From positions 1 through 13,169 of the forward strand of contig CAMZDU010000003.1 in the NCBI GenBank assembly GCA_947305445.1: a stretch of 13,169 bases of DNA, given 5' to 3'. The DNA comes from an uncultured Selenomonadales bacterium (lineage in GTDB: Bacteria > Bacillota > Negativicutes > Selenomonadales > Selenomonadaceae). Below the pieces are notes generated by a model. The model made no database searches and was not told the origin of the DNA. It was given only the letters and a program-made list of their open reading frames with translations. Below are positions 1 through 9,944 of the stretch, piece by piece. Position numbers and translations under genes: made by a program. How positions within the stretch are numbered: the first letter of the stretch is position 1; every line of letters starts with the position of its first letter.

Positions 1-1972
1 TTTTGTCGCGGAACAGGAAGCCGGCAAAGAGAAAGTCGAAGGCGCACTGCTTGACAAAATTTTGGCGCGGCAATTCGATATGGTTGCTTACCTTGCCAAC
101 GACAGATACAGCGTAGTAGTCGGCGACGCCACGATTATCAGCAAAGGTTCAATCTTCCCGACGACCCGCGAAGGCGTTTACGACGACTACTTAAAGAATC
201 AAGTTATCCCCGTGCTTGACGGCGACGACGCGCTGAAAAAAAATCTCGGCGACGCGCTGAGCCTCTCGACAATCCGCGACAAGCTCAAGACTGCCGAGCC
301 TTACGTCGTCAACATTGCGTGCAACATCGGCGGCGAAATTTTTTATAAGCGGCTGGACTTCTACGCAATCGATCCCCGCGCAGATTTTTTCATCGTGTTG
401 AAGAGCGACACGACCGACCTTCAACGCAAACAGCTTGAGCAGAACGCACGCCTTAAAGAAGCGTTGACGGTTGCCAAGCAAGCCAACGTCGCAAAGACTG
501 CGTTCCTGTCGCGCATGAGCCACGAAATTCGCACGCCCATGAACGCAATCATCGGCCTCGACAACATTGCTCTGCACGACAAAGATTTGACACCGACACT
601 TCGCGGCCACCTGGAAAAAATCGGATCGAGCGCACGTTACTTGCTGTCAATCATAAACGACATACTCGACATGAGCCGAATTGAGAGCGGCCGCATGAGT
701 TTCCGCAACGAAGAATTTTCTTTTACGTCGTTCGTCTACCAGATTAACACGATTGTCGACGGGCAATGCAAAGACAAAGGCTTAACGTACAACTGCGAAC
801 TGCGCGGCGACATCGGCAAATATTATATCGGCGACGACACGAAGCTTGAGCAGGTGCTTATAAATATTCTCGGCAACGCGGTCAAGTTCACGGACGTTGG
901 CGGCTCCGTCACGCTGATTATCGAGTGCACCGCGCAATTTGACGGACAATCGAATTTCCGCTTCACAATCCGCGACACGGGTATCGGCATGAACAAAGAC
1001 TATCTGCCGCGCATTTTTGAACCGTTCAGCCAGGAAGACGACACGACCACTTCAAAATACGGCGGCTCCGGCCTCGGACTGGCCATCACGAAAAATATCG
1101 TGCAGATGATGAACGGCACGATTGAAGTCGATTCGACCAAGGGCGTCGGCACAACTTTTGTCATCAACATTCCGCTGAAAGATTCGGCGCGCGGCGAAGG
1201 CGACGACGTTCACGAGATGCGCCCGCAAGATTTTTCGGTGCTGATTGTCGACGACGAACCGCTTGCCCGCGAGCACGCTCAATCCGTTCTCGAAGAAGTC
1301 GGCATTTCGTCGGACACCTGCGAAAGCGGCGCGGAGGCCATTGAACTTGTCAAACTGCGCCACGCCCGCCGCGAGGATTACAACTTAATAATCATCGATT
1401 GGCTTATGCCCGACAAAGACGGAATTGCCGTCACCCGCGAGATTCGTGAAATTCTCGGCTCGGACACGGCGGTTATCGTCCTCACGGCTTATGATTGGTA
1501 CGAAGTCGAAGAGGAGGCTTTAAAGGCCGGCGTCGATGCGTTCATGGCCAAACCGCTCGCCTCGACCAACGCGCTTTACGAATTCCGTCAAGCTTTCAGT
1601 CGCAAGCGGCAGATACTCCCCGATAAAAAAGTCGTCGACCTCACCGGCAGAAAAATTCTTGTCGCGGAAGATATGCCCGTCAACGCCGAAATTATGATGA
1701 TGATTCTGGAGATGCGCGGCATGATTTCCGACCACGCCGAGAACGGGAAAATTGCTGTCGAAAAGTTTGCCGCCTCGCCCGCAGGATTTTACGACGCTAT
1801 ACTCATGGATATTCGCATGCCGGTCATGGACGGTTTGAAAGCAACCGCCGCGATTCGTGCACTCGATCACCCCGACGCGAAGACTGTGCCGATTATCGCA
1901 ATGACTGCCAATGCCTTCGACGAGGACGTTCAACGCTCGCTCAAGGCCGGCATGAACGCTCACCTTACATAG
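1..1972 (+). CDS. Hybrid sensor histidine kinase with two receiver domains (5' end outside window; ends at an in-frame TAG)
   Basis: The frame is open to the left edge, so the true start lies upstream. Codon phase begins at base 2. The visible part starts with a sensory region that I cannot assign (possibly PAS-like). The kinase core follows: H-box SHEIRTP with His at 521-523, N-box around 839-889 (LEQVLINILGNAVKFT), G1 DTGIG at 974, F-box FEPFSQED, and G2 GGSGLGLAI near 1061. Two receiver domains come next: the first has VLIVDDEP, phospho-acceptor Asp at 1397-1399 and a C-terminal AKPL; the second has ILVAEDMPVN and Asp at 1808-1810 in MDIRMP. By family knowledge it autophosphorylates on His and relays to Asp; the signal is unknown. 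The second receiver stops at ...MNAHLT, where K-P is expected, because of TAG at 1970-1972. The same frame then continues PADPEQLYKTLQELIHD to TAA at 2024-2026. The architecture is certain; whether the last receiver works is doubtful. Confidence 0.93.
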   Translation, partial: FVAEQEAGKEKVEGALLDKILARQFDMVAYLANDRYSVVVGDATIISKGSIFPTTREGVYDDYLKNQVIPVLDGDDALKKNLGDALSLSTIRDKLKTAEPYVVNIACNIGGEIFYKRLDFYAIDPRADFFIVLKSDTTDLQRKQLEQNARLKEALTVAKQANVAKTAFLSRMSHEIRTPMNAIIGLDNIALHDKDLTPTLRGHLEKIGSSARYLLSIINDILDMSRIESGRMSFRNEEFSFTSFVYQINTIVDGQCKDKGLTYNCELRGDIGKYYIGDDTKLEQVLINILGNAVKFTDVGGSVTLIIECTAQFDGQSNFRFTIRDTGIGMNKDYLPRIFEPFSQEDDTTTSKYGGSGLGLAITKNIVQMMNGTIEVDSTKGVGTTFVINIPLKDSARGEGDDVHEMRPQDFSVLIVDDEPLAREHAQSVLEEVGISSDTCESGAEAIELVKLRHARREDYNLIIIDWLMPDKDGIAVTREIREILGSDTAVIVLTAYDWYEVEEEALKAGVDAFMAKPLASTNALYEFRQAFSRKRQILPDKKVVDLTGRKILVAEDMPVNAEIMMMILEMRGMISDHAENGKIAVEKFAASPAGFYDAILMDIRMPVMDGLKATAAIRALDHPDAKTVPIIAMTANAFDEDVQRSLKAGMNAHLT

Positions 1973-2026
1973 CCCGCCGACCCCGAACAGCTTTACAAGA
2001 CATTGCAGGAATTGATTCATGATTAA
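1973..2026 (+). pseudogene. Severed C-terminal tail of the sensor kinase's last receiver domain
   Basis: These 17 codons plus TAA are in frame with the kinase. They encode PADPEQLYKTLQELIHD, a typical receiver beta5-alpha5 ending after the conserved Lys-Pro. The Lys codon itself is TAG (1970-1972), one substitution from AAG. Nothing in the tail has decayed, so the stop is either recent, a sequencing error, or read through. The TAA overlaps the ATG of the next gene (2019) by 8 bases, the usual layout for translational coupling. Confidence 0.8.
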
Positions 2027-2888
2027 TTGCGGACTGATTATCCCAACGCTTAACGCCGGCGCACAATTCCGTACGTTGCTTGAACAAATTGCCGCGCAAT
2101 CTTTGCCGACGAAAAAATTAATCGTCGACTCGGAGTCGTCGGACGATACGGCAAGCCTTGCAAAAAAATCCGGCTTGGAAGTTTTGACAATCCCGCGCAA
2201 AAATTTCAATCACGGCGCAACCAGACAGCTTGCACTGGAAATTTTACTTGAGCGCGAGCCGCTCGACGTGATAATTTTTTTGACGCAGGACGTTTTGTTG
2301 CGCGAAGACGACTCGCTTGCAAAGCTCGTGAAAATTTTTGGCGAAGATTCGACTGTCGGCTTGAGCTACGGAAGGCAACTCCCCCACGCGAACGCGACCA
2401 ACGAAGCGAAATTTTTGCGGGCGTTCAACTACCCCGAAGACAGTCAGTTGCGCTCCTTCGACGACAGAAAAATTTTCGGACTAAAGACGGCGTTTGCGTC
2501 GAATTCGTTCGCGGCTTACAGAGCCGGCGCGCTAAAAGACGTCGGCGGTTTTCCGTCGCACGTGCCGCTTTGCGAGGATATGTACGTTGCGGCGAAAATG
2601 TTGCTTGCCGGCTGGAAAATTTTTTATGCGGCGGAGGCGCAGGTTTTTCACTCGCACAACTACACTGCCGCGCAGGAATTCCGCCGTTATGTCGAGATTG
2701 GCAAATTTCACGCGCAGGAACCTTGGATTCGCGAGACTTTCGGTTCGGCTGAAGGTGCCGGAAAAAAATTCGTCTTGATGAAACTTGCCGCGCTTGCAAA
2801 AAAAAATCCTGTCGACTGCTTCGGCGCAATCTTCAGGGACGCGGCAAAATTTTTCGGCTACCGACTTGGCAGACTTATGTTTAATTAG
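2019..2888 (+). CDS. Family 2 glycosyltransferase, rhamnosyltransferase-like
   Basis: A 289-residue GT-A-fold protein. The N-terminal motif IIPTLNAG (7-14) is followed by DSESSDDT (37-44), the nucleotide-sugar-binding part of GT2 enzymes. NHGATRQ (64-70) resembles the HGATRN motif of rhamnosyltransferases. TQD (89-91) is in the place of the metal-binding DxD, and C-E-D (185-187) supplies the likely catalytic base. No membrane segment is evident, so it probably acts at the cytoplasmic face on a lipid-linked or surface glycan. The donor sugar cannot be read from sequence. The ATG follows an AGGAA Shine-Dalgarno (2007-2011) by 7 bases and overlaps the original kinase stop TAA (2024-2026), indicating an operon with the kinase. 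The frame ends in TAG. The family call is firm; the rhamnose specificity is a guess from motif similarity. Confidence 0.88.
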   Translation: MINCGLIIPTLNAGAQFRTLLEQIAAQSLPTKKLIVDSESSDDTASLAKKSGLEVLTIPRKNFNHGATRQLALEILLEREPLDVIIFLTQDVLLREDDSLAKLVKIFGEDSTVGLSYGRQLPHANATNEAKFLRAFNYPEDSQLRSFDDRKIFGLKTAFASNSFAAYRAGALKDVGGFPSHVPLCEDMYVAAKMLLAGWKIFYAAEAQVFHSHNYTAAQEFRRYVEIGKFHAQEPWIRETFGSAEGAGKKFVLMKLAALAKKNPVDCFGAIFRDAAKFFGYRLGRLMFN

Positions 2889-4923: not shown

Positions 4924-4999
4924 TGGCAGGGGTAGCTGGACTCGAACCAACGCATGCCAGATTCAGAGTCTGGTGCCTTACCAACTTGGCGATACCCCT
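4924..4999 (-). tRNA. tRNA-Gln (anticodon CUG)
   Basis: A 76-base cloverleaf with encoded CCA. The acceptor arms are AGGGGTA and TACCCCT; the D-stem is GCC/GGC. The anticodon stem CCAGA/TCTGG carries loop CTCTGAA, with CTG at 4964-4966 (minus strand). The variable loop is CATGC, the T-arm is GTTGG-TTCGAGT-CCAGC, and the discriminator is G followed by CCA. The body resembles bacterial glutamine tRNAs. CUG reads only CAG codons, so a UUG-anticodon tRNA-Gln should exist elsewhere. Position 1-72 is A-U, whereas bacterial tRNA-Gln usually has U1-A72. It is a lone tRNA with its own promoter and terminator. Confidence 0.95.
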
Positions 5000-5050: not shown

Positions 5051-5730
5051 TTATTTCTTGTCCTTCTTGTCTTTTTTAGTCTTCTTATCTTTTTTATCTT
5101 TTTTATCTTTTTTATCTTTCTTGTCCTTTTTGGATTTTTTGTCGGACGCGCTGTTGTCTTTGAAACTGGCGACGCTGTAGCGGTATGTGTCGATATACTC
5201 TTTGGCAAGGTTGACGCTGTTGAGTTGAATGCTTATGCAACGACCTTCGGGCGTGCGGAAGAATGTGTAGATAAATTGACGGTCGGCAACGAATTCGCCG
5301 TCGACTTCGCCGGTTTCCTCGTTAAGAACTTCGATAGTTTCGGCGGTTATGGCATAGACGCCCTTGTTGTTTTTGGTGATGTTGACAGGTCTGGCTTCAG
5401 CAAAACCGCCATTCTTTTTTAGAGCGATAAGGTAATCGCCGATTGCGGCCGTGCTACCCTTGTTGAAGTCGGGAACACTTGAATTACATAGGCGTAGAGA
5501 ATATCGAAGCCCTCGTTGGCGAAGACGAGCATCTCGCCGCGCTTTTCAGGCTCCTGCCACGGATTTTGCACGACTGCCACAGGTTTAATCGGGCAGGCAA
5601 TCGAGAATTTGAAGTCCTCGCTGGTGTAGATGTACGGACCGTCCTCTTCGGGGGCAGGTTCCTCTGCGGCAAAGGTCGTTGTCGTTAGAATCATCATCAG
5701 CAACGCCGTCAGAAAAAAAATTTTACGCAT
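5051..5730 (-). pseudogene. Secreted protein with Lys/Asp repeat tail, interrupted by a one-base frameshift
   Basis: The gene starts at ATG 5728-5730 with GAGGTG 8 bases upstream. Its first frame encodes a signal peptide (MRKIFFLTALLMMILTTTTF, then AAEE, likely cut near AA-EE) and a domain with SEDFKFSIACP. It runs to ...AYVIQVFP, then goes out of frame and stops at 5419-5421. At GGG 5471-5473 (CCC on the coding strand) a shift of one base opens a second frame: DFNKGSTAAIGDYL, then ...QFIYTFFRTPEGRC, ending in TAA at 5051-5053. Adding one C would give about 226 residues. The repaired C-terminus is a KKD/DKK tandem tail of about 30 residues. I do not recognise the family; the SEDFKFSIACP start is loosely like PsbP/DUF1795-type secreted domains. 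It may be a real mutation or an assembly error in a homopolymer. The remainder shows no decay. Confidence 0.8.
5054..5146 (-). repeat. Nine-base tandem repeat encoding a (DKK)n tail
   Basis: On the plus strand three exact ATCTTTTTT units lie at 5087-5113, flanked by imperfect copies. On the coding strand they read GAT AAA AAA, i.e. Asp-Lys-Lys. The whole stretch encodes about nine K-K units separated by Asp, Ser or Thr, up to the stop codon. Such short-unit arrays can change length by slippage. Confidence 0.85.
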
Positions 5731-5764
5731 AAGCGGTTCACCTCGTTTGATTGTTGTCGCGAGT

Positions 5765-5793
5765 ATTGTAACCGACGCGCCGAAATTATTCAA
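5765..5793 (-). promoter_or_regulatory. Promoter for the secreted-protein gene
   Basis: On the minus strand, TTGAAT (5788-5793), a 17-base spacer and TACAAT (5765-5770) make a good sigma-70-type promoter. The -10 is 34 bases upstream of the ATG at 5730, leaving room for a short leader with GAGGTG at 5739-5744. Confidence 0.75.
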
Positions 5794-5849
5794 GAAAATT
5801 TCATTAAAAATTTTTAAAGGTTTGTTACACTCTCGGCGAGGTGAACGAC

Positions 5850-6653
5850 ATGACATTGACAGTGCTTATAGAAAACACGCGGCCGGAAGGCTCGACACTT
5901 GTGGCGGAACACGGGCTTAGCTTTTTCGTGGAAACGGCGCAGAAAAAATTTTTGTTCGACTGCGGACACACGGGCGCGGCTTGGACAAACGCACGAGCTT
6001 TGGGCGTCGACTTGTCGGCCGTGAAATTTGTCGCGCTCAGTCATTCGCATTACGACCACGCGGGCGGCTTTCCGACGCTGATTGACTTCGCGCCGATTGA
6101 AAAAATCTTCACGGGTGTGAATTTTTGGCAAGAAAAATTTTCATGCACTGACGAAAAAATTACTAATTGCCTTTATCGCGGTTGCGGTTTCGATGAAAAT
6201 TTTTTGGCGGCTCATCACATTGAGCAAATCATCTGCCGCGACGTGACGGAGATTGACGAGGACACTTGGCTTGTCGGAAATTTTAAGCGGCGTTACAAAT
6301 TCGAGACGATACCGAAAAAATTTTTGCGCGGCTCCGAAAAAATTCCCGACGACTTCAGCGACGAAATTGTTTTGGTTTTGCGCGAAGGTGACGGGCTTGC
6401 GGTGGTGACGGCGTGCGCTCATTCGGGCATTTTGAATATCGTTGCCGACGTGCGCGAAAGATTTTCTTTGCCGGTTGTCAGCGTGATTGGCGGGCTTCAC
6501 TTGACGGGCGCAACTCGCGAAAGAATTTTCCGCACGCTCGATGAGCTGAAAATTTTGGGCGTAAAAAAAATTCTGCCGTGTCATTGTTCGGGCGAAGAGT
6601 TTATGAACAATTTTACCGACAGAATTTCGACCGGCTCGGTCATTGCAATTTAA
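5850..6653 (+). CDS. Metallo-beta-lactamase-fold metal-dependent hydrolase
   Basis: 267 residues from ATG 5850. That start is preferred over GTG 5841 because GAGGTG (5838-5843) sits 6 bases before the ATG and overlaps the GTG. The metal-binding motif HSHYDH is at 65-70, in LSHSHYDHAGG. Further ligand candidates are His191 in TACAHSGILN, His217 in GGLHL and His245 in PCHCSGE. This layout matches the MBL subgroup often annotated as dihydropterin/RFA-P synthase-like hydrolases, whose real substrates are mostly unknown. It has no signal peptide, so it should be cytoplasmic. It is divergent from the secreted-protein gene and convergent with mqnA, so it is probably a single-gene unit. The fold is certain; the substrate is unknown. 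Confidence 0.88.
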   Translation: MTLTVLIENTRPEGSTLVAEHGLSFFVETAQKKFLFDCGHTGAAWTNARALGVDLSAVKFVALSHSHYDHAGGFPTLIDFAPIEKIFTGVNFWQEKFSCTDEKITNCLYRGCGFDENFLAAHHIEQIICRDVTEIDEDTWLVGNFKRRYKFETIPKKFLRGSEKIPDDFSDEIVLVLREGDGLAVVTACAHSGILNIVADVRERFSLPVVSVIGGLHLTGATRERIFRTLDELKILGVKKILPCHCSGEEFMNNFTDRISTGSVIAI

Positions 6654-9089: not shown

Positions 9090-9944
9090 TTACAACGGGT
9101 TAATTATCCTAAACACGCCGAGATTTTTCAGCCAGATGCTTTTGTCGTAGACGGCACGAATAGAGTCGCGCAAAGCCTCGTCGCCGGCGTCTGTCTCCAG
9201 CTCGAAGAAAAAAATATACGCGCCGAGAATCGTGCGTGCGGGGCGCGACTCGATACGCGTCATGTTCACGTTGCGCTTGGCGAACTCGTTGAGCACCTCG
9301 CAGAGCGAACCGGCGCGGCTACCGTCAATCTGACAGATAATCAAAACTTTGTCGCCGTCGAAAGTTTCAATCGGTGCGGCGTCCCGCGGGCGGTAACGAA
9401 TCTCGAAAAAGCGCGTGAAGTTATTTGGATTGTCCTGGATATTTTCTGCGGCGACTGTAAGTCCGTTGAGTTTGCCGGCGCGTTGAGTGCCTATCGCGGC
9501 GAAATTTTCGGCGGAGGCGGCGACAAATTCTGCGGCACGTGCGCTGGAAGTTGTTGCCACAATTTCGGCGTCGGGAAAATTTTTGTGCAAGAAATTTCTA
9601 CACTGGGCGAGCGGTTGCGCGTGCGAGAAAATTTTTTTAACGGATTGTACGTCGACAAACGGCCGCGTCAACAAAAAATTTTTTACCGGCCAGACGAGTT
9701 CGCGGACAACTTGCAACGTGTCGGAGCGTGCCAAAGTGTCGAGGGTAATGTTTATCGAACCTTCTAGCGAATTCTCTGCTGGCACGAGCGCGGCGTCAAG
9801 CTTGTGTTCTTTTACGGCAGTCAGCACGTCAAAGATGTCCGCGCAGATTTGGAGCCGCCAATCTTCCCGCAAAAATGTTTTCAGCCAAAGAGCCGCCTCT
9901 TCCGAGTGCGTGCCCTTCGGTCCGAGAATACCGACTTTTTTCAT
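9090..9944 (-). CDS. pheA: Prephenate dehydratase with C-terminal ACT domain
   Basis: 284 residues, the length of a monofunctional PheA (no chorismate mutase part). The catalytic domain has GPKGTHSEEA (8-17), ENSLEGSINITLDTL, ATTSSARAAEFV and the signature NNFTRFFEI with the catalytic Thr. The ACT domain (about 200-280) contains GSLCEVLNEFAKRNVNMTRIESRPAR; its ESRP motif marks phenylalanine-responsive dehydratases. It converts prephenate to phenylpyruvate in phenylalanine synthesis, and feedback inhibition by Phe is expected from the ACT domain. The ATG at 9944 follows GAGGTG by 7 bases, and that GAGGTG overlaps the TGA of the exonuclease gene, indicating tight coupling. Both this enzyme and MqnA draw on chorismate. 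Confidence 0.95.
   Translation of the reverse strand: MKKVGILGPKGTHSEEAALWLKTFLREDWRLQICADIFDVLTAVKEHKLDAALVPAENSLEGSINITLDTLARSDTLQVVRELVWPVKNFLLTRPFVDVQSVKKIFSHAQPLAQCRNFLHKNFPDAEIVATTSSARAAEFVAASAENFAAIGTQRAGKLNGLTVAAENIQDNPNNFTRFFEIRYRPRDAAPIETFDGDKVLIICQIDGSRAGSLCEVLNEFAKRNVNMTRIESRPARTILGAYIFFFELETDAGDEALRDSIRAVYDKSIWLKNLGVFRIINPL

Follow-up and report, generated by a model that had tools for sequence, protein, structure and literature searches.

The stretch of DNA analysed here (the window) makes up contig C3 in full, at 13,169 bases. The draft genome to which it belongs comprises 300 contigs with a total of 1,533,793 bases and an estimated completeness of 68.66%. Among its named relatives, the nearest are drafts of Quinella and other Selenomonadaceae, several of them derived from ruminants; judged by these relatives, the draft is apparently itself Quinella and presumably metagenome-assembled. 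On the forward strand, the window starts within a gene for a hybrid histidine kinase (2..1972). Open-frame translation and Pfam gave 656 codons ahead of a premature TAG. Since the window is the entire contig, the 5' end of the kinase gene is cut off by the contig start. The HisKA dimerisation/phosphoacceptor domain (491..691, residues 164-230, PF00512) is followed by the HATPase_c catalytic domain (830..1180, residues 277-393, PF02518) and by two receiver domains (both PF00072), all on the forward strand. The first receiver (1238..1564) has its own Lys-Pro (MAKPL). The second receiver (1655..1969) extends to the residue before the conserved Lys and contains the phosphoacceptor Asp (in LMD) and the Thr of MTAN. 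With HisKA, HATPase_c and receivers matched above the Pfam cut-offs in one chain, the protein still belongs to the hybrid histidine kinase family. One receiver is shortened: its Asp and Thr are present and the codon for the Lys of Lys-Pro is TAG. The 13 best-matching relatives of the kinase have open frames of 950-1086 residues, and the full-length kinase of the locus L035 also carries PAS domains. The same draft encodes a paralogue (contig C29, 5291-7312) that is 60% identical to the kinase, has no internal stop and keeps the Lys.

On the forward strand, frame 2 contains no stop between base 2 and the TAG at 1970-1972, after which it reads PADPEQLYKTLQELIHD to the TAA at 2024-2026. When aligned with three solved receiver structures (6qrj, 7c1j and 8phn), the TAG falls on the Lys of their K-P motif, and the PF00072 match runs across the site (profile positions 1-110, with one TAG inside). 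The first base after the TAG is a C. The 17 codons of the remaining receiver frame (1973..2026, forward strand) are undamaged and lead to the usual gene end. The first-pass annotation had placed an amber codon on the conserved lysine of the final receiver domain, with 17 intact codons and a TAA behind it, and the reading frame, the structure alignment and the orthologues all agree with this description. According to the available text of PMC9981736, receivers need the peptide bond between this Lys and the following Pro to be in the cis form for the Lys to reach its position in the active site.

The conservation of the site was analysed in orthologous loci and in proteins. Of 45 orthologous loci found, 32 were counted; these are 79-89% identical and come from genome contigs, some of which are the same records as genomes in the kinase search. 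The 13 excluded loci were a fragment lacking the site (L067), L062 and eleven distant loci (L068-L074 and L076-L079). All 32 counted loci have a Lys codon at the site (AAG in 25, AAA in 7) with Pro next, and their frame reaches the usual end. Because the Lys-Pro and the same C-terminal end recur in every one of these close loci, the alignment of the TAG with the Lys is not due to chance. The site could be read in 8 of the 13 excluded loci (L062, L068, L069, L071, L073, L077, L078 and L079), where the codon is also Lys. Among the best 120 of 7,736 proteins, 118 have Lys-Pro at the site and the remaining two are fragments ending earlier. When the kinase was searched in 60 genomes, including its own, the window's gene was the only one with an internal stop among the matches listed. 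Since the orthologous loci and the listed proteins keep the Lys or end earlier, the stop is private to this draft among the sequences seen. A programmed truncation was ruled out: orthologues ending consistently at the TAG position, which had been named earlier as evidence against a lesion, were not seen in the 32 loci or in the 120 listed proteins; the two protein fragments end before the site. The protein and locus searches did not return a second copy of this species, and the base at the TAG therefore has no confirming copy; the nearest listed proteins and the nearest loci are both 89% identical, and both collections may omit near records. A search of a plasmid collection gave no match.

The remainder of the gene was then compared for signs of decay. 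In an alignment with 29 orthologues, the window differs at 1 of 368 counted invariant positions, and none of the changes falls on the 77 invariant positions of the second receiver or the 7 of the tail. The dN/dS of the receiver against the closest relative, L035, is 0.038. The 17-codon tail, which is too short to be judged, shows 2 synonymous and 3 non-synonymous differences to L035 and 2 and 0 to L041. A long-term decay of the receiver was ruled out by the low dN/dS and the unchanged invariant residues. Since the rest of the gene is without signs of decay, the stop must be of recent date if it is real at all. Were it a true nonsense mutation that arose recently in the strain or species, the last 18 residues would be lost and the relay through the second receiver would stop, while the kinase core, the first receiver and the C29 paralogue may keep a partial function. 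We regard this as a serious explanation, if one standing somewhat below even chances. It fits the isolated lesion with its clean flanks and undamaged tail, the Lys codon in all close orthologues counted, and the paralogue that has kept its Lys and has no internal stop.

Could this genome use TAG as a sense codon? It encodes an intact release factor 1 without a stop (544.5 bits, cut-off 423.25). At 150 orthologous gene ends in the draft, TAG serves as the stop 12 times, TAA 55 times and TGA 83 times. The best matches to PylS in the 68.66% complete assembly scored 22.9 and 18.1 bits, far under the cut-off of 178.15. The ten tRNAs found carry anticodons for Gln, Thr, Arg, Val (two), Cys, Pro, Ser (two) and Ala. 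No amber-reading tRNA with the anticodon CTA was among them; further tRNAs must be missing from the assembly and, because of this incompleteness, the absence is weak evidence. The tRNA-Gln lies in the window (4924..4999, reverse strand), has the anticodon CTG and is not an amber reader; it was the sole match in an Rfam scan of the window. Two other in-frame ambers of the draft are in unrelated genes, where a relative has Lys and Tyr, so that the three ambers face Lys, Lys and Tyr. In the survey described below, each of the three in-frame nonsense codons left after filtering is TAG, which speaks for recoding and would occur by chance in about 8% of cases, as estimated from the one-step codon routes of the window. 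Recoding was nevertheless rejected on account of the intact RF1, the TAG at normal gene ends and the conservation of the TAG position in 0 of 32 loci, and we give it practically no chance. It had already been judged less likely in the first-pass annotation, with reference to the neighbouring glycosyltransferase gene, which does end in TAG (2019-2888). The release factor, the 12 of 150 gene ends and the PylS scores weaken it further.

A leaky or suppressed amber would yield two forms of the kinase, with and without a working last receiver. The undamaged tail and the C after the TAG are consistent with this, as TAG followed by C is a leaky context in E. coli. Against it stand the intact RF1, the stop being found in none of the relatives looked at, and the positions of the draft's other two in-frame ambers (Lys and Tyr in a relative) in unrelated genes. 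The TAG is also read by none of the 10 tRNAs found, with others necessarily missing from the assembly. We consider such read-through very unlikely. That the amber is both real and leaky in the strain, so that a single gene gives two kinase forms and the efficiency of termination controls the phosphorelay, is less likely still.

The region around the codon was also inspected for repeats and RNA structure. No tandem repeat was detected at 1800-2150 and no inverted repeat in 1850-2100; the latter region contains one two-copy direct repeat of 11 nt, and the codon lies outside it. Folding of the RNA around the codon was no better than that of shuffled sequences (z = +1.43), and an RNA structure was discarded as an explanation. 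Phase variation was ruled out, as there is no repeat at the codon. The earlier interpretation is partly supported: of its proposed causes, a recent nonsense mutation, a base-call error and a phase-variable or suppressed amber, the first two survive, and a phase-variable amber has no visible basis.

Downstream of the kinase, a family 2 glycosyltransferase is encoded on the forward strand (2019..2888). Its start overlaps the old kinase stop, and its normal TAG end is within one codon of the TGA end in the nearest relative. A translation ending at the TAG of 1970-1972 would stop 46 nt short of the start of the glycosyltransferase gene. The kinase and glycosyltransferase genes, which overlap in the window (2010-2030), are separated by about 500 bases in the closest relative L035 (6020-6530). 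This intergenic stretch of L035 contains a frame of 92 residues, a promoter-like site and a terminator-like hairpin and is flanked by the imperfect repeats GGAATTGATT and GGAGTTGATT. The 92-residue frame had no Pfam match and no match in 37 genomes, including the window's own, in a search run without a positive control. The comparison is compatible with a deletion in the window and with an insertion in L035 and could not separate them.

The window contains a second broken gene on the reverse strand (5051..5730), 3.5 kb away from the kinase stop, with its halves in different frames. The front half lies in the reverse-strand frame 5419-5856 and begins with the ATG at 5730; the back half, in another frame, ends at 5051. 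In six relatives (G004, G009, G011, G013, G014 and G016), both halves are in a single open frame of 234-256 residues. Relative to these, the window is without about 22 nt near 5471-5473, as obtained by subtraction of positions. A Lys-Asp-rich repeat closes the back half of this gene.

To compare the frequency of such lesions, genes of relatives were aligned with 557,298 bases of the draft (G000), about a third of the genome and including the window. Only breaks passing a stricter filter were counted, as looser surveys gave many false matches (shadow frames and upstream extensions). With the window among the targets and the controls' own records (L041 and L047) among the references, 7 genes of the draft were broken over 229,682 comparable coding bases, whereas the same filter returned none in 125,216 bases of the control relative G021 and none in 156,730 bases of G029. 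When the window, the controls' own records and two contigs chosen because of their receivers were left out, the count was 6 in 223,186 against 0 in 276,687 control bases (P = 0.0079, assuming that breaks are proportional to bases). A like-for-like count with the references of G029 alone, window included and controls with their self records, gave 6 in 181,977 (P = 0.0036). The excess over the relatives consists mainly of frame changes, since that of the three in-frame stops taken alone is not significant (P = 0.09).

The broken genes were identified by their best NCBIfam match, in some cases below the curated cut-off. The three in-frame stops, all TAG, are in the kinase, in a methylmalonyl-CoA mutase small subunit (C1:8692) and in a GGDEF/c-di-GMP protein (C25:8456). 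The four frame changes affect a nikA-like binding protein (C2, L093:7560), a PTS transporter (C27:6839), an aminotransferase (C42:984) and the DNA repair protein UvrC (C55, L241:about 4500). Three more breaks were seen outside the filter and left uncounted, the controls not having been searched equally loosely; these are a frame change in a nikE-like ATPase gene (C2, L093:about 9640-9665), a break in an aldose-epimerase-like gene (C23, PF01263) and the gene of the window that is broken near 5471. Altogether, ten gene-breaking changes were seen in the surveyed part, seven of them under the common filter. The two nickel-transport-like genes on C2 each carry a frame change, about 2 kb apart.

The amber of the mutase gene lies within a patch of substitutions (L092:8632-8740) rich in A-to-T changes, which make up 8 of 30 inside and 12 of 367 outside the patch (Fisher P = 2.8e-5, for a patch picked after it had been seen). 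The available text of a Quinella paper (PMC9585023) describes a propionate pathway. The mutase patch was missed as well by the filter of a scan for substitution patches, which showed no excess in the draft (3 in 100,036 aligned residues, against 1 in 55,760 and 1 in 71,467 for the controls). On contig C117 (L110:1-310), a receiver has Thr-Pro in the usual place of Lys-Pro and runs into a TAA at contig bases 8-10.

We conclude that the TAG is a lesion which, among the sequences seen, is private to this draft and sits in an otherwise conserved kinase. By a small margin, it is probably an artefact of the fragmented assembly. Such an error, in the assembly or in a base, is a little more probable than a true nonsense mutation of recent date. 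It is favoured because of the excess of stops and frame changes over the two relatives, the second break in the same contig and the location of the mutase amber in an A-to-T-rich patch. It is also favoured by published work in which poor assemblies stand out by having more internal stops than similar genomes (Cooley and Wright 2024, PMC11017572, in its available text). This draft likewise has more stops and frame changes than its relatives do; real gene decay would have the same effect. We also counted for an error the Lys kept at 32 of 32 loci and in 118 of the 120 listed proteins, and the C117 receiver with its Thr-Pro and TAA.

Other observations speak against an assembly error. The amber is isolated, with no change at the invariant positions of receiver and tail, and there is no general excess of substitution patches, so that such patches do not help the case for base errors. 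The three stops alone are not significant, and frame changes from deletions are less telling than other stops about a single base change. In our judgement, the majority of the remaining broken genes appear dispensable. The nikA-like and nikE-like breaks lie as close together as real decay would give. With several other genes broken, the lineage may be shedding genes, which speaks for a real mutation of the kinase. Against a real mutation are the many breaks in the surveyed part of the draft, compared to none in the two relatives, and the unconfirmed base, for which no second copy of the species was found.

If the TAG is read literally, translation would end before the Lys-Pro and the last helix of the second receiver. 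The kinase core and the first receiver would keep their motifs. The second receiver would keep its Asp and Thr yet would be unlikely to switch normally, because the Lys-Pro and the last helix would be lost. There is no sign that the stop serves any function, and it does not point to recoding or to a regulatory device. A functional reading of this single stop codon is unsafe because the surveyed draft is richer in broken genes than the two relatives. Seen in a single window, a stop codon on a catalytic residue that hardly ever varies resembles biology, and this calls for caution. A true stop would mean that one receiver was lost recently, an ordinary event, in a genome that still has an intact related kinase.

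Natural amber suppression and pyrrolysine decoding are the systems that the locus resembles in having an in-frame TAG with an intact tail after it. It differs from them in that RF1 is present, no PylS match exceeds the cut-off, no CTA tRNA was found in the draft and the TAG is unconserved. The locus also resembles the spurious pseudogenes described in the available text of PMC11017572, as there is likewise an excess of internal stops and frame changes compared to relatives in a fragmented draft; the neighbours used there have an ANI of at least 99.9%, whereas the nearest relatives here are 84-89% identical in the kinase protein. With other hybrid kinases that have two C-terminal receivers (HisKA, HATPase_c, REC, REC), the kinase shares the domain order and the motifs of the core and the first receiver. 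In contrast to these, its last receiver ends before the Lys-Pro and the final helix, in this genome only.
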